Part shown: positions 52,875-60,416 of the stretch, one piece after another
Numbering within the stretch: position 1 is the stretch's first letter
How the letters are laid out: each line of letters opens with the position of its first letter
Source of the DNA: Streptomyces sp. NBC_01439
Lineage (GTDB): Bacteria > Actinomycetota > Actinomycetes > Streptomycetales > Streptomycetaceae
Direction: 5' to 3'
Length of the DNA stretch: 64,000 bases
NCBI RefSeq assembly: GCF_036227605.1
Contig: NZ_CP109487.1
Location: forward strand, 3,608,001 to 3,672,000
Translations under genes and position numbers: made by a program
The notes under the pieces: model-generated
What the model was told of the DNA's origin: nothing
Databases searched by the model: none
What the model saw: only the letters and a program-made list of their open reading frames with translations

Positions 52875-52900
52875 AACACTGCCACGCCCGTCTTCATTCC
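52875..52900 (-). promoter_or_regulatory. SigR-dependent promoter of moeZ
   Basis: Minus strand: GGAAT (52900-52896), exactly 18 bases, GTT (52877-52875), ending 65 bases before the moeZ start. It overlaps the last codons of the upstream spherulin-4-like gene. moeZ is a known SigR target in S. coelicolor (from memory). Confidence 0.88.
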
Positions 52901-53619
52901 AAGACACCTGTCCCGATCCTTGAGACGATTTCGTCCCAGTAAGCGGGCATTGAGGCCCAGGGGTCGCTGCCGCGCGTCCCGAGCCGGTCGGTGAACCAGA
53001 TCGTGCCCGCCCCCTGCCAGCGGGCGATCCTCATCGCCTCTTCCAGATGCGCCCGCGGCACCCCGTGGACGAGGTGGCAGAAGCGCTCCGCAGGATGGTC
53101 CGCGGTCCACTCGGCCACCTGCGACCAGCGGTAGTCGGACCAGGCCCCGGAGAAGGTGACCAGCTGGTCGGCGGCCTCCGCGTAGCCCTCGTACGGGTGC
53201 GTGCCGTGCCCGAGCACGATCCACAGGTCCTCACCGAGGCCCCGCAGGGTATCCACGACCCGGCTCACCGAGGCGAACTCCGCCTTGCCGGCCGGGGTTC
53301 CGGCCAGGTAGAAGCCGCCGACCCCGTACCAGTCGCGGAAACGGTGGGCATCGGAGACCAGCTCCCCGAAGGACCGCGCCCCGTCTCGCACCGCGAGATG
53401 GCCGAGGATCATGCCGCCCGCGCGGCGCAGCTTCGCGGCCGCTTCCGTGCAGTGCGGATCGGGCCGCCCGCCCGGGCCGTCCGCCACGTTCAGCACGGCC
53501 CAGTGCAGCGGGGTACCGGGGCGGGTCAGCTCGGCCCACTCGACGGGGGCGAGCAGCGGGTGCGCGTAGCCGGGGATGCCGAGACCGAGGCGGCCGGCCC
53601 CGGTCGCGGCGGCGGTCAT
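52894..53619 (-). CDS. Spherulin-4-like (GH135-related) protein
   Basis: About 241 residues with a TIM-barrel-like pattern of the spherulation-specific family 4: LGIPGYAHPLLAPVEWAEL at the start, HWAVLNVADGPGGRPD, GGMILGHLAVRDGARSF, DWYGVGGFYLAGTPAG, LWIVLGHGTHPYEGY, and the late GAGTIWFTD. Fungal Sph3 (GH135) cleaves galactosaminogalactan. The acidic D-E pair expected at the end of the strand in GGFYLAGTP is replaced by Ala-Gly, so activity is doubtful. There is no signal peptide. It is the last gene of the glycosyltransferase cluster, nearly overlapping the epimerase gene; a GTG 30 bases upstream is an alternative start. Confidence 0.78.
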   Translation of the reverse strand: MTAAATGAGRLGLGIPGYAHPLLAPVEWAELTRPGTPLHWAVLNVADGPGGRPDPHCTEAAAKLRRAGGMILGHLAVRDGARSFGELVSDAHRFRDWYGVGGFYLAGTPAGKAEFASVSRVVDTLRGLGEDLWIVLGHGTHPYEGYAEAADQLVTFSGAWSDYRWSQVAEWTADHPAERFCHLVHGVPRAHLEEAMRIARWQGAGTIWFTDRLGTRGSDPWASMPAYWDEIVSRIGTGVLE

Positions 53620-53636
53620 GGCCCCCGGCGGCGTCG

Positions 53637-54647
53637 TCAGATGCGGCACGCCGCCTCCATCCAGATGTCCGCGAGGGATTCCTCCAGGTTGATCCGGGGC
53701 CGCCAGCCGAGCCGGTCGCGTGCGGTACGGACGTCCGCCTGCTGCCAGGCCCCGCAGCCGTCCGGGTACGGGTACGGCTGGGGGGCCGCGACGGCCATCT
53801 GCTCGGTGGTGGCCTCGGAGCGGGGCGAACCGATGGCGGAGAGGCCGGCCGGGCGGCCGGGGTGCCCGTGCCCCTGCTGGGGTCCGCCGTGCGGGACGTC
53901 CAGCTCGTGCAGGGCGCCCCCGTACCCGGCGACCCGGGCGAGGACCGAGGCCGCGTCGCGCAGCCGGACCGCGCGGCCGGTGCCGATGTTGACCACGCCC
54001 TGGGCGGCGGACAGCGAGGCGGCGTGCACGGCCCGCGCCACGTCGCGTACGTCCACGAAGTCGCGTTGCACGCCGAGTCCGCTGAGCTTCAGCTCGCCGT
54101 CGCCCGCCTGCATCGCGCGGCGCATGGCCTCGGCGAGGCGGCCGAGCGGGGATCCGGCGGGGGTACCGGGTCCGACGGGCGAGAAGATCCGCAGGACGAC
54201 GGCGTCGAGTCCGGAGCCCAGGACCAGCTCGGTGGCGGCCAGTTTGCTCACGCCGTACGGCCCACCGGGTCTCGGCACGGCGTCCTCCGCCGTGGACGAT
54301 CCGGGCTGGCTGGGCCCGTACTCGGCGGCGCAGCCGAGCTGCACCAGCCGGGCCCCGCAGCCGCTGCGGCGCAGCGACTCGCAGATCGTCGCGACGGCGA
54401 CGGTGTTGTGCCGGGTGAGTTCCCGGGCCCCGCCCCGGGTCGCTCCGGCGCAGTTGATGACGACGCCCGGGTGGACGGCGTCGAGGAAGCGGGTGAGCGC
54501 GCCGGGGCTGCCGGTGGCGAGGTCGAAGCGGACGTCGGCGTCGTCGCCGCGGCCGAGCGCGGTGAGCTGGACGGCGGGGTCGGCGAGCAGCCGGTCGGCC
54601 ACGTAGCGGCCGAGGTATCCGTTGGCTCCGATCAGCAGCACCCTCAT
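53637..54647 (-). CDS. NAD-dependent nucleotide-sugar epimerase/dehydratase
   Basis: A 336-residue extended SDR. NAD-binding LLIGANGYLGRYVADRLL at the N terminus, LVQLGCAAEYGPSQPG (Ser/Thr-region) and the catalytic Y-x3-K in GPYGVSKLAATEL. Later come NIGTGRAVRLRDAASV and an R-x2-LGWRP ending, typical of UDP-sugar epimerases. AGGGG lies eight bases before the ATG. A 12-codon ORF with a strong ribosome site ends exactly on this ATG (ATGA overlap). Inferred role: supplying a sugar nucleotide such as UDP-GalNAc to the neighbouring glycosyltransferase. Confidence 0.88.
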   Translation of the reverse strand: MRVLLIGANGYLGRYVADRLLADPAVQLTALGRGDDADVRFDLATGSPGALTRFLDAVHPGVVINCAGATRGGARELTRHNTVAVATICESLRRSGCGARLVQLGCAAEYGPSQPGSSTAEDAVPRPGGPYGVSKLAATELVLGSGLDAVVLRIFSPVGPGTPAGSPLGRLAEAMRRAMQAGDGELKLSGLGVQRDFVDVRDVARAVHAASLSAAQGVVNIGTGRAVRLRDAASVLARVAGYGGALHELDVPHGGPQQGHGHPGRPAGLSAIGSPRSEATTEQMAVAAPQPYPYPDGCGAWQQADVRTARDRLGWRPRINLEESLADIWMEAACRI

Positions 54648-54682
54648 CGCGTGACCCCTTGGTTGGTTGGCTGGCCGGTCAT
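54644..54682 (-). CDS. Twelve-codon upstream ORF coupled to the epimerase gene
   Basis: The frame reads MTGQPTNQGVTR and stops at TGA overlapping the epimerase ATG (ATGA). AAGGAG sits eight bases before its ATG, a better site than that of the epimerase itself. It is too short for a protein function; a translational-coupling or attenuation role is inferred. Upstream (54684-54782) I see only GGACGGAT-like short repeats and a GGGGACGTCCC palindrome. Confidence 0.45.
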   Translation of the reverse strand: MTGQPTNQGVTR

Positions 54683-54782
54683 GTCTGTGTCTCCTTGCGG
54701 ACGGATGGACGGATGGGTGGGGCGGGGTACGGGCAAAGCGCCTCGGCGTCGGCTCCGAAGGTCTGGGGACGTCCCGGGGACG

Positions 54783-55934
54783 TCAGGTCCGCGCGTGCGC
54801 GGAGGCGCGGGCCAGGGCGAGCACGGCGTGTACGAGGAGTCCGGCCACGGCGGCGAGCGCCGCCGCCGGGACGGGGACCAGGGCGAGGGCGAGGGCCGCG
54901 CCGACGGGCCCGCGGGGGGCTCCGTGCCGCAGCAGGAGCCGGGTCAGGAAGAGCAGCAGTGCGAGGGGAACGGCCACCGGAAGCGGCGTTCCGGCGAGCA
55001 CGGCGGCCGCGGCGGCGGCCCCGGTGAACAGGGCGACGGCCGCCAGCAGCAGCGGACGCGCCCGGTCCGCGAAGTCCTCCAGGGCCCGGCTCCCGTCGAG
55101 CCGGGCCCGCGCCCCGGCGGCGAAGGCGACGGCGACCAGGTGCGCGGGGACGACGGCCAGCGCGAGGCCGACGGCGAGGGCGGTGCCGTGCCGGTACACG
55201 GCCCAGCCGGCCACGGCCGCGGCCAACACGTGCGCCGCGTAGGGGAACCGGCGCCCGGCGGCCCGCCCCGGCCACACCAGGGCGGTGGCGACGGCGACCA
55301 CGGCGGCGGCCCCGGCCCACGCCTGCCCGGCGGCGGCCGCGGCGCAGGCGAGGGCGGCCGGCAGCAGCGCGTAGCCGACGCCGCGGAACGCGGCGGGGCC
55401 GGCCGGGACCGGAGCGGGCGCGGCGGGGGCGACCTCCTCGTGGGGGCTGCGCGCGTACAACTCTTCGGCGAGCGAGAAGACGTCCCGGTGCCGGAACCGT
55501 GCGGCGGTCCGGTCGGTGATGCCGTGGGCCTCCAGCCCGGCGGCGATCTCCAGCGGGTCCACGGCGCGCTCGCACAGCTCCCGGTGCCGGTGCAGCAGGG
55601 CCTTGACGGGATCCCCGGCGGCCCTGCGCCGAGCCGGCCCGGCGGCCAGTCCGCCGCCCCGGCCGCCGGGCCCCTCCCTTCCGGCTTCGTCATGGCCACT
55701 CCCAGCCTCGGCGGCGTTTGAGGCGCGGGGGTCCGGGGGCAGCGCGCCCGGCAACGGCGCCGCGCCGGACCGTGCACCGGAGGACGGCACCGCACCTGCG
55801 GCACCGCTGCCAGGGCTCCGCCCCGGACCCCGCGCCTCAAACGCCGGCGAGGCTGCATGTGCCGGGGCTGGAGGTAACGCTGGCGAGGGCGCATATGACG
55901 GGGCCGCCGCGATCTGGGGGTCGATGGTGGTCAT
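54783..55934 (-). CDS. Polytopic membrane protein of the polysaccharide cluster
   Basis: A 383-residue protein. Residues 1-85 are Ala/Pro/Gly-rich and contain a dispersed GC-rich repeat pair. Residues about 90-150 are soluble, with LHRHRELCERAVDPLEIAAGLEAHGITDR and FRHRDVFSLAEELYARS. The rest is eight to nine hydrophobic helices ending ASAHART. It is not an obvious PelG or Wzx. The start ATG overlaps the stop of the glycosyltransferase gene (ATGA), so the two are coupled. Leu20 is encoded by TTA (55875-55877), predicting bldA dependence. A transporter role for the polymer or precursor is inferred from context. Confidence 0.78.
   Translation of the reverse strand: MTTIDPQIAAAPSYAPSPALPPAPAHAASPAFEARGPGRSPGSGAAGAVPSSGARSGAAPLPGALPPDPRASNAAEAGSGHDEAGREGPGGRGGGLAAGPARRRAAGDPVKALLHRHRELCERAVDPLEIAAGLEAHGITDRTAARFRHRDVFSLAEELYARSPHEEVAPAAPAPVPAGPAAFRGVGYALLPAALACAAAAAGQAWAGAAAVVAVATALVWPGRAAGRRFPYAAHVLAAAVAGWAVYRHGTALAVGLALAVVPAHLVAVAFAAGARARLDGSRALEDFADRARPLLLAAVALFTGAAAAAAVLAGTPLPVAVPLALLLFLTRLLLRHGAPRGPVGAALALALVPVPAAALAAVAGLLVHAVLALARASAHART
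55690..55856. repeat. Inverted pair of dispersed GC-rich repeats inside the membrane protein gene
   Basis: Two copies of a unit containing GGCGTTTGAGGCGCGGGG then TCCGGGG face each other at about 55707-55741 and 55816-55853. The intervening 75 bases are also GC-rich. Related single copies occur in the ABC ATPase gene. The frame stays open, coding the Ala/Pro/Gly/Ser-rich N-terminal segment. Confidence 0.8.
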
Positions 55935-57547
55935 ACGACGGCCTCCGGGGACGGGTCCGGGGCGGGAGCCCACGTCGGGCTGGTCCAGTGGCCGGGCACC
56001 CGGGCCTCCGGGGGCCGGGCGAAGGGGATCCCGCCGTCCGGCCGCGCGGAGCCCTTGGCCAGCAACCGCAGGTAGATCTCCTGGAAGGCGGCCACGTTCT
56101 GTTCGACGGTGAAGAGCTCCAGGGCCCGCGCCCGGCCGGCGGCGCCGAGCCGCTGCGCCCGCTCGGGGTCCTGCAGCAGCGACAGACAGGCTTCGGCGAG
56201 CGCCCGCGGATTGCGGGGCGGGACGACGAGCCCGGTGCCCCCGATGACCTCGCGGACCGCACCCACGTCGGTGGAGACGGTGGCGCGCCCGCAGAGCATC
56301 GCCTCGGCGAGGGTGACCGGGAAGCCCTCGATCACGGAGGACAGGACGACGACGCGCCCGGCGCCGTACGCCTCGGCCGTGGTGGGGACTTCGGGTCCGC
56401 CGATCTCCTCGAAGGTGACCGGGTTCTCCCCGGCCGTGACCGAGTCGGCGGCCTCGTCGGGGAAGAGCTGGGCGGCCAGGGAGCGGCAGTCTGCGAGGTA
56501 GCCGGGGACCGTGGCCGTGGCGAAGATCCGCAGCCGGGTGCCGGGCGCGGCCCGGCGGACCTCGGCGAAGGCGTGCAGCAGGGCGATGAGGTCCTTGGCG
56601 GGCTCCATCCGCCCGACCCACACCAGGGTGTCGGGGTCCCCGGGGTCAGCGGCCTCGCCGACGGTGGCGAATCGGTCCGCCTCCATCCCGGGATAGACGG
56701 TCCGCAGCCGTTCCCGGGTGGCCCCGCAGCGCTCCTGCCAGCGCCGGGCGTGCACGTTCCCGGGGGTCAAGAAGTCGGCCCGGGTGTAGATCTCGGTGGC
56801 CAGCCGCAGTTGGAAGGCCGCGAGCAGGGCCCTCACGGCGGGGCGGGTCTCCGGCTCGCCACGGGTGTCGAGCCGCGCCAGGTAGTGGGCCCGGAGCTGG
56901 ACGCCGTACTCGGTGACCAGCAGCGGGACCCCGAAGAAGCGTTTGGCCAGGAGTCCGGGGAGGGCGGCCACGCCGCCCGCGGCCGCGTGGCAGATGTCGG
57001 CCTCGCCGAGACCGTCCGGCTCCCCGTACCAGTCGAGGGACAACGGCCGGAGCATGACCTCCAGTTCGTCCACGAACTCCAGCAGGTCGGCCACCTGGGC
57101 GGCCCGTACGGTGCGTGCGGCGCCCGGCGCCCGGCAGGCGGACTCCAGGGTCCGCACCGCGGACTCGGAGCGCAGGGCCGCGTACATCCCGCCCTGTTCG
57201 CGGGCGAGTCCGGCGAGCCCGTACAGTCCGGTCTCGAAGGGCTGCTCCGCACCGGCGCAGATCCCGTGGACCAGCTGCTCGAAGCAGTCCACGAACCGCC
57301 GGCGCTCCCGCCGGGAGTGGGTCCGCCCGTCGTCGGCGGGGGCCCACAGGGGGGCCGTCCGGACCCGGGTGACGTGCTCGGGCAGTGGCACACGGGCGCG
57401 TTCCTGCTCGGCGCTGCGGCTCAGTGCGTAGACCTCGAACTCGTGCTGCGGGAGCCCGCGCACGAGCCGGTCGCACCACAGCCTCGCCTCTCCCGTCGCA
57501 TACGGATAACCACCTTCGGTGAGCAGTCCGATCCGCACGAGTCGCAC
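55931..57547 (-). CDS. GT4 family glycosyltransferase, PelF-type (DUF3492)
   Basis: A 538-residue cytoplasmic glycosyltransferase. The N-terminal DUF3492 region is recognisable: RIGLLTEGGYPYATGEARLWCDRLVRGLP, PLSLDWYGEPDGLGEADICHAAAGG, and LLVTEYGVQLRAHYL. The GT-B C-terminal half has WVGRMEPAKDLIALLHAF and the E-x7-E donor-site motif EGFPVTLAE. PelF enzymes use UDP-GlcNAc/GalNAc to build the Pel polysaccharide. It is the first gene of the cluster and overlaps the next by four bases. A possible -10 TAGCGT lies near 57701-57706. Confidence 0.9.
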   Translation of the reverse strand: MRLVRIGLLTEGGYPYATGEARLWCDRLVRGLPQHEFEVYALSRSAEQERARVPLPEHVTRVRTAPLWAPADDGRTHSRRERRRFVDCFEQLVHGICAGAEQPFETGLYGLAGLAREQGGMYAALRSESAVRTLESACRAPGAARTVRAAQVADLLEFVDELEVMLRPLSLDWYGEPDGLGEADICHAAAGGVAALPGLLAKRFFGVPLLVTEYGVQLRAHYLARLDTRGEPETRPAVRALLAAFQLRLATEIYTRADFLTPGNVHARRWQERCGATRERLRTVYPGMEADRFATVGEAADPGDPDTLVWVGRMEPAKDLIALLHAFAEVRRAAPGTRLRIFATATVPGYLADCRSLAAQLFPDEAADSVTAGENPVTFEEIGGPEVPTTAEAYGAGRVVVLSSVIEGFPVTLAEAMLCGRATVSTDVGAVREVIGGTGLVVPPRNPRALAEACLSLLQDPERAQRLGAAGRARALELFTVEQNVAAFQEIYLRLLAKGSARPDGGIPFARPPEARVPGHWTSPTWAPAPDPSPEAVV

Positions 57548-57768: not shown

Positions 57769-59427
57769 CTACGCGAAGACCTCCTGCCGGGTCCTGCGGC
57801 GGCCGGCCGCCAGCGCGGGGGCCAGGGCCGGTACGGCGGCCAGCAGCTGCCGGGTGTAGGGATGGGCCGGGCGGTCGTAGACCTCGTCCACCGGGCCCTC
57901 CTCGACGATCTCCCCGGCCCGCATGACGGCCACCCGGTCGCTGACCTGTCGGACCACCGCCAGGTCGTGCGCGATGAAGACCAGCGCGATGCCCAGCTCC
58001 CGCTGGAGCTCCGCCAACAGGGCGGTGACCTGCGCCTGGGTGGTCACGTCGAGGGCGGAGACCGGCTCGTCGCAGACGATCAGCCGGGGCCGGGGCGCGA
58101 GCGCCCGCGCGATGCCCACCCGCTGGCGCTGACCGCCGCTGAACTCGTGCGGGTAGCGGTCGTAGTGCTCGGCCTCCAGCCCGACGCGCAGCAGCAGCTC
58201 CGCCACCCGGGCCCGGACGGCCGCCTCGTCCCGCTCACCGGCCGCGCGCAGCGGGTCGGCGATGGACTCGCCGACGGAACGGCGCGGGTTGAGGGAGGAC
58301 ACGGGGTCCTGGAAGACCATCTGCACACCGCTCGCAATGCCGGTGACCGGGGCGCCGTCCCGGTGCACCTGCCCGGAGCCGGGCTCCAGCAGTCCGACGA
58401 GCATCCGCCCGAGCGTGCTCTTGCCGGAGCCGCTCTCGCCGACGATCCCGAGGGTCTCCCCGGCGTGCACGGCGAGGGACACCCCGGCGACGGCGGCGAC
58501 CTTGCGCCGGCCCCGCCCGAACTCCCGCCGCAGTGAGAAGGCCTCGACGACGGGCGGCACGTCCGCCGATTCCGGCCCAGCCGGGGTTCGAGGCGCGGGG
58601 TCCGGGGCGGAGCCCCGGGAAGGGCGCGGCCCGTCCAGCCTGGGCACCGCCGCCAGCAAGGCCTTGGTGTACGGCTCCGCCGGTGCGGCCAGCACGGAAG
58701 CCGCCGGGCCCCGCTCGACGGCGTGGCCACCCCGCATGACCAGCACCTCGTCCACGCTCTCCGCCGCCACCCCCACGTCGTGGGTGACCAGCAGCAGCCC
58801 GAGCCCGCGCTCCTCGCGCAGCCCGTGCAGCAGGTCGAGGATCTGGGCCTGGACGGTGACGTCCAGCGCGGTGGTCGGTTCGTCGGCGATCAGCAGCCGC
58901 GGCTCGCAGGCCAACGCCATGGCGATGAGGGCCCGTTGCCGCATGCCGCCGCTGAACTCGTGCGGTCGCGCGCGGGAGCGGCGCACCGCGTCCGGGATGC
59001 CCACCCGGTCGAGCACCTCGACGGCGCGGGCCCGGGCGGCCCGCCGGGAGACGTCCGCATGGATCCGGTGGACCTCGGCGATCTGGTCGCCGATGGCGTA
59101 GTACGGGTCCAGCGAGCTCAGCGGGTCCTGGAAGACCATGGCGGCCGTCCCGCCGCGCAGCCGGCGCAGTTCGGCCGCCGGGGCCGTGCCCACGTCCGTG
59201 CCGCCCACCCGGACGGTGCCGCCGAGGCGGGCGCCCGTACCGCGGTGCAGTCCCAGCAGGGCCGCGGCGACGGTGGACTTGCCGCTGCCCGACTCTCCCA
59301 CGATGCCCAGGGCCCGACCCGCCTCCAAGGTGAAGGAGATCCCGTCCACGGCCCGTACGTGTTCCCCCGCCCCGCCGACGGGGAAGTCGACGACGAGGTC
59401 GGTGACCTCCACCAGTGAGTGCGTCAT
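57769..59427 (-). CDS. Oligopeptide ABC transporter ATPase, DppD-DppF fusion
   Basis: A 552-residue protein with two complete ABC ATPase domains in one chain. First: Walker A GIVGESGSGKST, signature EFSGGMRQRALIAMAL, Walker B LLIADEPTTALD, switch VTHD. Second (after about residue 290): GESGSGKSTLGRM, EFSGGQRQRVGIARAL, LIVCDEPVSALD and IAHDLAVV. Peptide transporters usually use two separate subunits. The linker (RGSAPDPAPRTPAG) is coded by a dispersed GC-rich repeat. It overlaps the preceding permease gene by four bases (ATGA). Powers uptake at the inner face of the membrane. Confidence 0.94.
   Translation of the reverse strand: MTHSLVEVTDLVVDFPVGGAGEHVRAVDGISFTLEAGRALGIVGESGSGKSTVAAALLGLHRGTGARLGGTVRVGGTDVGTAPAAELRRLRGGTAAMVFQDPLSSLDPYYAIGDQIAEVHRIHADVSRRAARARAVEVLDRVGIPDAVRRSRARPHEFSGGMRQRALIAMALACEPRLLIADEPTTALDVTVQAQILDLLHGLREERGLGLLLVTHDVGVAAESVDEVLVMRGGHAVERGPAASVLAAPAEPYTKALLAAVPRLDGPRPSRGSAPDPAPRTPAGPESADVPPVVEAFSLRREFGRGRRKVAAVAGVSLAVHAGETLGIVGESGSGKSTLGRMLVGLLEPGSGQVHRDGAPVTGIASGVQMVFQDPVSSLNPRRSVGESIADPLRAAGERDEAAVRARVAELLLRVGLEAEHYDRYPHEFSGGQRQRVGIARALAPRPRLIVCDEPVSALDVTTQAQVTALLAELQRELGIALVFIAHDLAVVRQVSDRVAVMRAGEIVEEGPVDEVYDRPAHPYTRQLLAAVPALAPALAAGRRRTRQEVFA
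58570..58625. repeat. Dispersed GC-rich repeat in the ATPase linker
   Basis: The plus strand reads GGTTCGAGGCGCGGGG then TCCGGGGCGGAGCCCCGGG. It is closely related to the units inside the membrane protein gene near 55.7-55.85 kb and shares the GGGGCGGAGCCCC palindrome with the adnA repeats. It sits exactly between the two ATPase domains. Confidence 0.78.
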
Positions 59428-60412
59428 GCGAGGGTCACCCTTCGGTCCGCGGCGGCGTACAGGAGGTCGGCGACCGCGCCCGCGAGGACCACGGCCGTGC
59501 CGATCGCGAGGACGACGCCGACGACGACGGGCAGGTCCACGACCCGTACGCCGTCGATCAGGGTCTTGCCGAGGCCGGAGATCCCGAACAGCGACTCCGT
59601 CAGCACGGCCCCGCCGATCATCGTGCCGAAGTCCACGGCGCTGAGCGCGATCACGGGGGCCACGGCGCCGCGCACCGCGTGCCGCGTGACCACGGCCCGC
59701 TCCCCCACCCCGTAGGCGCGGAAGGTCCGGATGTGGTCCTCGGCCAACGTCTCCAGGGTCGAACTGCGCGTGAGGCGGGCGTACTTGGCGCTCTCGAAGA
59801 AGCCGAGGGTGATCCACGGCAGGAGCAGGTTCCAGGCCCACTGCTCGGGGTCCTCGGTCAGCGGCACGTACGTCGGGAACGGCAGCCACTGGAGGTGGGC
59901 GCAGACGATCATGAGCAGCAGCAGCCCCAGGATGAAGACGGGGGTGCCGGTTCCGGCGAGGGTCAGGACGGTCAGGGCCCGCTCGGTGATTCCGCCGCGG
60001 CGCAGCGCGGACAGCAGTCCGGTGCCGACGCCGACCACCAGCCAGATCACCAGCGCGCCCAGCGCCAGCGACAGGGTGGCGGGCAGCCGGTCCAGGATCA
60101 GCGCGGTGACCTGCTGGTCGTTCTGATAGGAGAAGCCCAGGCAGGGCGCGTCGCAGTGCAGGACCAGTCCGGCGCCACCGGAGTAGTCCCGGCCGGCCAG
60201 CAGCCCCTGGAGGAAGTGCAGGTACTGGGTGGGGGCGGACTCGTTCAGCCCGAGCTGCTGGCGGACCTGGGCGATCTGCGCCGGGTTGCAGCGCTCGCCG
60301 CAGGCCAGGCGGGCCGGGTCGCCGGGGGCGAGGTAGAAGAGGGCGTAGACGATCACGGACAGGGTGAGCAGCACGAGCACTGCGCCGCCCGTCCGTTTGA
60401 GCACGAAGAGGG

Positions 60413-60416
<4 letters not shown>
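59424..60416 (-). CDS. Peptide ABC transporter permease, DppB type
   Basis: A 330-residue inner-membrane permease with six helices. The N-terminal LKRTGGAVLVLLTLSVIVYALFYLAPGDP is typical of DppB, and the coupling EAA-like loop is present (HIRTFRAYGVGERAVVTRHAVRGAV), followed by FGTMIGGAVLTESLFGISGLG. The periplasmic loop has several cysteines (LACGERCNP, LHCDAPCLG), suggesting disulfides. The GTG start overlaps the DppC stop (GTGA), and its own stop overlaps the ATPase start. Confidence 0.93.

Follow-up and report, generated by a model that had tools for sequence, protein, structure and literature searches.

The four-gene cluster beside moeZ

The window analyzed here is a stretch of 64,000 nucleotides from Streptomyces sp. 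NBC_01439 (contig NZ_CP109487.1, positions 3,608,001 to 3,672,000), and its subject is a cluster of four genes next to moeZ. The genes encode a PelF-family glycosyltransferase (GT), a polytopic membrane protein (MEM), an epimerase-like protein (EPI) of the short-chain dehydrogenase/reductase (SDR) kind, and a Sph3/GH135-like protein (SPH). Galactosaminogalactan (GAG)-type operons are already known in actinobacteria (PMC7229062), and the window cluster is best read as derived from one of these. An earlier note on this DNA had described four minus-strand genes here and had linked them to PelF-type GT4 enzymes, epimerases, and Sph3. All four open reading frames (ORFs) are confirmed in position and strand (Table 1), and the family links are upheld by Pfam and NCBIfam scores above the cut-offs.

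The GT scores 109.7 bits against the NCBIfam PelF model NF038011 (cut-off 100; 106.6 bits in a six-frame search) and also matches Pfam DUF3492. EPI scores 127.3 bits against Pfam Epimerase PF01370 (cut-off 20.9) and stays below the cut-off of TIGR01179, the UDP-hexose 4-epimerase equivalog (34.6 bits, cut-off 262.3). SPH scores 67.9 bits against Pfam Spherulin4 PF12138 (cut-off 30.2). Its closest PDB sequence matches are the Sph3 entries 5c5g and 5d6t (E ~2e-6), and it belongs to GH135 by Spherulin4 family and Sph3 fold. For MEM, neither Pfam nor NCBIfam gave a match. The GT and MEM genes share 4 bp (ATGA), MEM and EPI are 135 bp apart, and EPI and SPH overlap by 13 bp. Translation of GT more likely begins at the in-frame GTG at 57538, since some relatives have the upstream GTG in another frame.

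Table 1. Features of the moeZ-linked locus and of a second cluster in the same genome
Feature	Position	Strand	Length	Basis or remark
GT, PelF-family GT4 glycosyltransferase	57547-55931	minus	538 aa	ORF, Pfam, NCBIfam
MEM, polytopic membrane protein	55934-54783	minus	383 aa from ATG 55934	ORF, predicted transmembrane helices
EPI, SDR nucleotide-sugar epimerase-like protein	54647-53637	minus	336 aa	ORF, Epimerase PF01370
SPH, Sph3/GH135-like TIM-barrel protein	53649-52894	minus	251 aa	Spherulin4 PF12138
moeZ, adenylyltransferase/sulfurtransferase	52815-51631	minus		neighbor marking the locus
Conserved upstream element	57713-57598	minus		before GT
Second cluster, five genes	C1:6698351-6705076 (L042:6351-13076)			Agd3-like, PelF, membrane protein, Sph3-like, GH114

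Conservation of the gene set in Streptomyces

Sixty-one Streptomyces genomes were drawn, and 55 loci were examined, namely the window's own and 54 fetched around the best GT match; GT is therefore present by selection in this genus sample. Six genomes were left unfetched (G008, G017, G028, G046, G050, and G058), of which G028 has a 71% GT match and the other five have none above 47%. The survey of co-occurrence proposed in the earlier note finds GT, MEM, EPI, SPH, and MoeZ together in 49/55 loci. The grouping is not due to chance, and the rare co-occurrence that would have counted against the note is not seen. Among the six incomplete loci, L048 and L091 are without SPH, MEM was not found in L097, L100, and L103, and L102 is a different locus that is not linked to moeZ and is separated in the counts below. 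A second set, the named loci, comprises the best 80 of 578 relatives and comes partly from the same genomes.

The remaining enzymes are under purifying selection, with dN/dS well below 1. Against five near relatives the ratio is 0.05-0.08 for EPI, 0.17-0.23 for SPH, 0.22-0.28 for GT, and 0.26-0.51 for MEM, and EPI is the best conserved of the four proteins. At E <= 1e-80, EPI is found in 22 of 246 genomes of the class, all of them from the window's genus (1 of 103 genera). At E <= 1e-60 it is found in 112 of 121 genomes of the family (15 of 17 genera). In these class- and family-level searches, every genome with an EPI orthologue belonged to the window's own family.

Catalytic residues of the three enzymes

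At the positions of Asp, Glu, and Glu222 in Sph3 (5c5g), the aligned window SPH carries Ala, Gly, and Ser. Glu222, the reported catalytic acid/base of GH135 hydrolases, is absent in 52/52 SPH orthologues (51 loci and the window), whose residues there are S 30, A 8, R 6, Q 3, T 3, C 1, and Y 1. It is also replaced in 79 of the 80 named loci (S 66, A 8, T 4, C 1, E 1). All five GAG-type paralogues have both Asp and Glu222. The paired Asp is more often kept, with D 36, A 10, G 5, and one masked among the 52 orthologues, and D 44, A 34, G 1, and H 1 among the 80 named loci. The catalytic Asp of Sph3, which we take to be Asp166, falls on Ala in the window SPH. It is printed as Asp196 in PMC12054363, at odds with the spacing in its sister families, and the Asp196-aligned place is Asp in the window SPH.

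The window SPH has no N-terminal hydrophobic segment by hydropathy. The GAG-type SPHs (L042, L044, L045, L049, and L055) likewise show no signal peptide by hydropathy; four of the five have at most 12 residues before the first barrel strand, and L055 has 15, with a hydrophobic stretch only at 31-49. Because hydropathy shows no signal peptide, the bacterial Sph3-like proteins of both kinds look cytosolic, unlike the membrane-bound fungal Sph3 (PMC12054363), and those of the GAG-type clusters look so unlike their Agd3-like and GH114 partners. A third Spherulin4 protein of the genome (C1:8321122-8321847, L043; 102.7 bits) has no neighbor within L043 that matches the window's proteins.

UDP-hexose 4-epimerases such as GalE and Uge3 use a Ser-Tyr-Lys catalytic set. 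The window EPI retains GxxGxxG, Tyr, and Lys, and its catalytic Ser is replaced by Cys. The same replacement is seen in 53/54 genus-sample rows, that is, in 53/53 that are moeZ-linked. The exception is L102, which also carries the single Lys change among the 54 rows. In the named loci Ser is Cys in 79/79, and Tyr and Lys are retained.

In the window GT, the donor-side motifs GR..P.KDL and E-x7-E are retained, while on the acceptor side the PelF/GAG-type motif TEGTYPH..GGV has become TEGGYPYATGEA and TEHGIYLRERY has become TEYGVQLRAHY; the two motifs are taken from the aligned reference and GAG-type GTs, and canonical PelFs vary slightly in them. The His of TEHG is Y in 44, H in nine (one of them L102), F in one, and masked in one of the 55 genus-sample rows, which leaves Y 44, H 8, and F 1 among the 53 readable moeZ-linked rows. 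It is Y in 64/64 readable named loci. The donor site of the named loci is intact, both at E-x7-E (63/63 readable) and at the Lys (65/65). Within the genus sample, 6/55 rows (L048, L050, L094, L099, L100, and L101) have a change at the first Glu of E-x7-E and none at the second, and the Lys is changed or deleted in 8/55.

All moeZ-linked GTs form one clade in the GT tree (100/100). They group with the GAG-type, Agd3-linked GTs, apart from two canonical PelFs (98/98). The tree represents canonical PelF by these two sequences, and the program issued warnings about its long branches and about sequences of unlike letter make-up. Six further GT4 enzymes encoded in the same genome fall outside the group made up of PelF, GAG-type, and moeZ-linked GTs (100/98). 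A grouping with such non-PelF GT4 enzymes, which would have overturned the earlier assignment, is thus not what the tree gives.

The membrane protein and its relatives

MEM has a variable N-terminus, a near-invariant helical module of ~55 amino acids, and then ~8 predicted transmembrane helices. An hhalign comparison of the window-type MEM family with the membrane proteins of GAG operons gives a probability of 99.4 (E 6.8e-22) over the C-terminal membrane part. The corresponding comparison with two PelG sequences gives 0.1 in the table and 0.06 in the detailed output, and that of the GAG-type family with the same two gives 0.3. By these alignments MEM is related to the GAG-operon membrane protein and is not PelG-like. 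The comparison agrees with the earlier remark that no PelG is visible. The note's further claim was that the export route would be new; the route is probably the kind of polytopic protein that had already been noted for bacterial agd3 operons (PMC7229062). The N-terminal part of the MEM gene (55700-55880) seems by eye to hold GC-rich sequence, presumably of the interspersed kind common in Streptomyces.

The upstream element and flanking genes

A highly conserved element precedes GT. It reads GAAAGTTACG-N4-TTCACCCCTT..GGTGG, followed by a 12-bp dyad, GGCGCGACGGAC-AACC-GTCCGTCGCGCC (57650-57623, minus strand). The element is present in 62 of the 63 named loci with at least 330 bp of sequence before GT, a set chosen independently of the element; the miss is L201. 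An alignment was made of 59 sequences picked by a match to GTTAC..TTCACC, letters that are therefore constant by choice. Its dyad is paired in 97.7% of cells and has changes on both sides at 5/12 pairs. The observed pairing and covariation values were reached by 0 to 3 of 500 shuffles. Allowing up to 3 mismatches, the genome has one copy of the element, and no Rfam family matched it over threshold. It may be an operator dyad or an RNA/leader hairpin, and the covariation fits either.

Downstream of the cluster lies moeZ, which is a fixed neighbor marking the locus; a function shared with the cluster is not argued. Upstream lies a peptide-type ABC transporter (Pfam, NCBIfam), of which a two-domain OppD/OppF-type ATPase (57769-59889) directly adjoins the cluster. 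In several relatives this ATPase was not detected in the fetched stretch upstream.

GAG-type clusters and known polysaccharide systems

The same genome holds a second cluster ~3 Mb from the first (Table 1). Its Agd3-like protein is large with a hydrophobic N-terminus. The profile of this family matches only Agd3 in PDB (6nwz, E 8.7e-13), and the single protein is below the Pfam Agd3 cut-off (23.7 vs 27.6). The PelF (163.8 bits), Spherulin4 (103.5 bits), and GH114 (285 bits, with a lipoprotein-like start) proteins accompany a membrane protein of 11 hydrophobic segments. The deacetylase has its DD and HxxxH motifs, and the Sph3-like protein its Asp and Glu. This motif-intact cluster is the likelier GAG producer of the genome, judging from its sequence. 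GAG-type loci in L045, L049, and L055 add dehydratase-like, nucleotidyltransferase-like, and epimerase genes (families were run on L045 only), as does one on a plasmid of S. californicus. A plasmid of Deinococcus sp. QL22 (L213) has PelF, a membrane protein, an Agd3-like protein, two GH114 proteins, and no annotated spherulin-4, and its membrane protein carries the same N-terminal module as the window MEM.

Actinobacterial agd3 operons with a GT, a polytopic protein, GH114, and sometimes spherulin-4 have been reported (PMC7229062). The window cluster resembles the bacterial agd3 operons of actinobacteria and Deinococcus in its PelF-like cytosolic GT, polytopic protein of the same family as in the Agd3-linked operons fetched, epimerase, and Sph3-like protein, and the Agd3-linked GTs share with the window GT their place apart from the two canonical PelFs. 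It differs from them in the absence of Agd3 and GH114, the changed catalytic residues of Sph3, EPI, and GT, the fixed place beside moeZ, and an EPI orthologue found in one family only. No Agd3-type deacetylase is present in the window cluster, the only match of the genome being at 6.70 Mb, and no GH114 was found among the seven window proteins scanned, which include all four of the cluster. The GAG cluster of Aspergillus (uge3, gtb3, agd3, sph3, ega3) shares three of its five enzyme types with the window cluster by family. There, however, deacetylase and GH114 are present, whereas in the window cluster they are missing, the GT and the membrane part are separate proteins, and SPH lacks both the hydrophobic N-terminus and Glu222. 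Canonical Pel loci (pelABCDEFG; pelDEADAFG in Gram-positive bacteria, PMC7112168) have in common with it a PelF-family transferase and an often linked epimerase. The window cluster has no PelG-like protein, its GT lies outside the branch of the two canonical PelFs, and Pfam found no PelD, PelE, or PelA/PelADA among the seven window proteins, the neighbor 59424-60416 and the rest of the genome not having been searched.

An Agd3 homologue was found in 33/61 Streptomyces genomes and not found in 28/61. Of these 28 genomes, 23 carry all five genes of the window locus.

The moeZ locus in other genera of the Streptomycetaceae

In the other genera, 20 of 84 EPI loci were fetched, covering all 14 genera with a match, so that EPI is present by selection. 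moeZ is found in all 20 loci, GT and MEM in 17 each, and SPH in seven. The catalytic position of EPI is Ser in 12 and Cys in eight. Among the seven SPHs, Glu222 is present only in that of genus g121, and Asp in one. The first Glu of E-x7-E is lost in 10/17 GTs, and the GTs of g109, g110, g117, and g120 have lost E-x7-E and the Lys. Gene content also varies, with MEM and EPI but neither GT nor SPH in g112, EPI and SPH in g116, and EPI alone in g115; neither EPI nor GT was found in g108 and g111. Between pairs from other genera, dN/dS is 0.22-0.64 for GT, 0.26 and 0.52 for SPH, and 0.07-0.29 for EPI.

At the other end stands g121 (G355, L236/L227). Here Agd3-like, PelF, membrane protein, dehydratase, nucleotidyltransferase, epimerase, Sph3, and GH114 genes precede moeZ, with one opposite-strand gene between the GAG-type cluster and moeZ. 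The GT, EPI, and Sph3 motifs are intact. In the tree, all other moeZ-linked GTs together form the sister group of its GT (94/95, slightly below the support that the program stars). The upstream element is also found before the lone EPI of g115 and as a short partial match before the intact cluster of g121, and the exact pattern is unmatched in the loci of g109, g110, g117, and g120 and in the GAG-type clusters. Across the genera, the moeZ loci are a graded series from intact to eroded.

Expression during development

In S. coelicolor, SCO5178 is moeB (PMC4340878). From gene order, annotation, and this neighbor, we infer that SCO5174-SCO5177 are the GT, MEM, EPI, and SPH of the window. SCO5174 ('transferase'), SCO5175, and SCO5177 are induced in the differentiating second mycelium, with log2 values of 2.2-2.6 at 24 h and 3.0-3.8 at 48-72 h, and SCO5176 is not in Table 3 of the same paper (PMC3610822). 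A transposon mutant of SCO5174 makes less actinorhodin, and the gene is listed among cell-envelope genes (PMC6585502). The earlier note had proposed a cationic GalNAc/GalN-rich polymer, perhaps surface-bound during development. Its developmental part fits this induction, as far as gene order identifies the three genes. The polymer is not supported, given the Glu222 missing from nearly every SPH orthologue, the lack of a hydrophobic N-terminal segment in SPH, the Ser to Cys change of EPI, the rebuilt acceptor-side motif of GT, and the 23 genomes that keep all five genes with no Agd3 found. The motif-intact second cluster, outside the window, is the more plausible source of a GAG.

Origin and possible role of the cluster

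We lean toward the view that the window cluster is a derived remnant of a GAG-type operon that stood beside moeZ in an ancestor within the family, taken to be Streptomycetaceae, its chemistry changed or lost and its genes kept. The intact cluster of g121 at moeZ, the sister position of its GT, and its partial upstream element speak for this. Since three of the four proteins have exchanged key catalytic residues, the genes that persist probably serve another function today. The ancestral operon would have lost Agd3, GH114, the nucleotidyltransferase, and the 4,6-dehydratase, and the remaining enzymes would have lost or changed catalytic residues while under purifying selection. EPI may supply or hold a nucleotide sugar in the cytosol, and GT may dock on the conserved N-terminal module of MEM. 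In most Streptomyces, GT would still bind its donor sugar and would no longer elongate a polymer; it could transfer to another acceptor or act as a scaffold. The Sph3-like barrel would stay cytosolic and bind glycan without cutting it, and the complex would act at the inner membrane face of differentiating hyphae. A bolder version, which we hold tentatively and at somewhat less than an even chance, is that across most of the family the whole operon has become a membrane complex, induced in development, whose members are pseudoenzymes or enzymes with new tasks. Its core would be EPI and the cytosolic module of MEM, with one genus keeping the intact ancestral operon at the same address. Donor-site loss in other genera favors a pseudoenzyme complex there, and the donor site retained in most Streptomyces leaves room for a retargeted transferase.

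Several observations weigh against a remnant origin with lost chemistry. The intact moeZ-linked cluster comes from one genome, and an independent GAG cluster may have landed beside moeZ; for the ancestry trees the program warned of long branches and of unlike letter make-up. Neither the window GT nor any of the 63 readable named loci has lost the donor site, and 8/53 moeZ-linked GTs retain the His of the EHG motif. A Ser to Cys change may be tolerated in an SDR, and residue loss is not proof of inactivity. Position 222 of SPH is Glu in L168 (S. bambusae T110), the paired Asp is retained in 36/51 readable and 44/80 SPH orthologues, and the SPH structure model is weak (mean pLDDT 58.7). With the higher dN/dS in other genera, some lineages may simply be decaying. 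The SCO5174-5177 mapping is by gene order and SCO5178 as moeB (PMC4340878), not by sequence.

A sharper form of one branch of the remnant reading, whose probability overlaps with it, is that GT has been retargeted to another envelope glycoconjugate of aerial growth, adding a single sugar to a lipid, a teichoic-acid-like chain, or a protein, with EPI a true epimerase or reductase of another nucleotide sugar. We consider this plausible, if on balance doubtful. It accords with a donor site mostly retained beside a consistently rebuilt acceptor side, with EPI being under the strongest constraint of the four proteins and retaining Tyr and Lys, and with the listing of SCO5174 among cell-envelope genes (PMC6585502), but it fails for g109, g110, g117, and g120 unless function changed again there, and for the few Streptomyces with the same donor-site losses.

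That the cluster still makes a GalNAc-type polymer seems unlikely. GT and MEM would then polymerize and export, EPI would make UDP-GalNAc, and deacetylation would occur in trans or not at all. The PelF score above cut-off, the donor site kept throughout the named loci (E-x7-E 63/63, Lys 65/65), the co-occurrence in 49/55 loci, the induction at differentiation (PMC3610822), and the low levels of galactosamine-containing polysaccharide reported in Streptomyces walls (PMC7229062) are all consistent with it. Against this stand the loss of Glu222 in nearly all SPHs, the altered EPI and acceptor-side residues, the loss of E-x7-E in 10/17 other-genus GTs though the genes are kept, the 28/61 genomes without a found Agd3 (23 with all five genes), and the separate, motif-intact GAG cluster of the same genome. 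Neutral decay, in which a redundant GAG cluster slowly disintegrates in every lineage, is very unlikely: stepwise gene loss across genera, the absence of EPI and GT in g108 and g111, and raised dN/dS in some pairs (GT to 0.64, SPH to 0.52) would suit it, but EPI, SPH, and GT have dN/dS of 0.05-0.28 near the window, EPI persists in 112/121 family genomes, the MEM module is near-invariant, the upstream element stands in 62/63 named loci that extend far enough, and the genes are developmentally induced (PMC3610822).

The remnant reading has consequences for how these genes are understood. A Streptomyces gene annotated 'PelF' or 'spherulation-specific family 4' need not belong to a Pel or GAG system, and the intact second cluster is a better target for seeking a Streptomyces GAG. 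A gene set that is conserved and induced in development, and that Table 3 of PMC3610822 lists as unknown for S. coelicolor, gains a testable function. The graded series at moeZ shows how a polymer-making operon can lose its chemistry and yet be kept.

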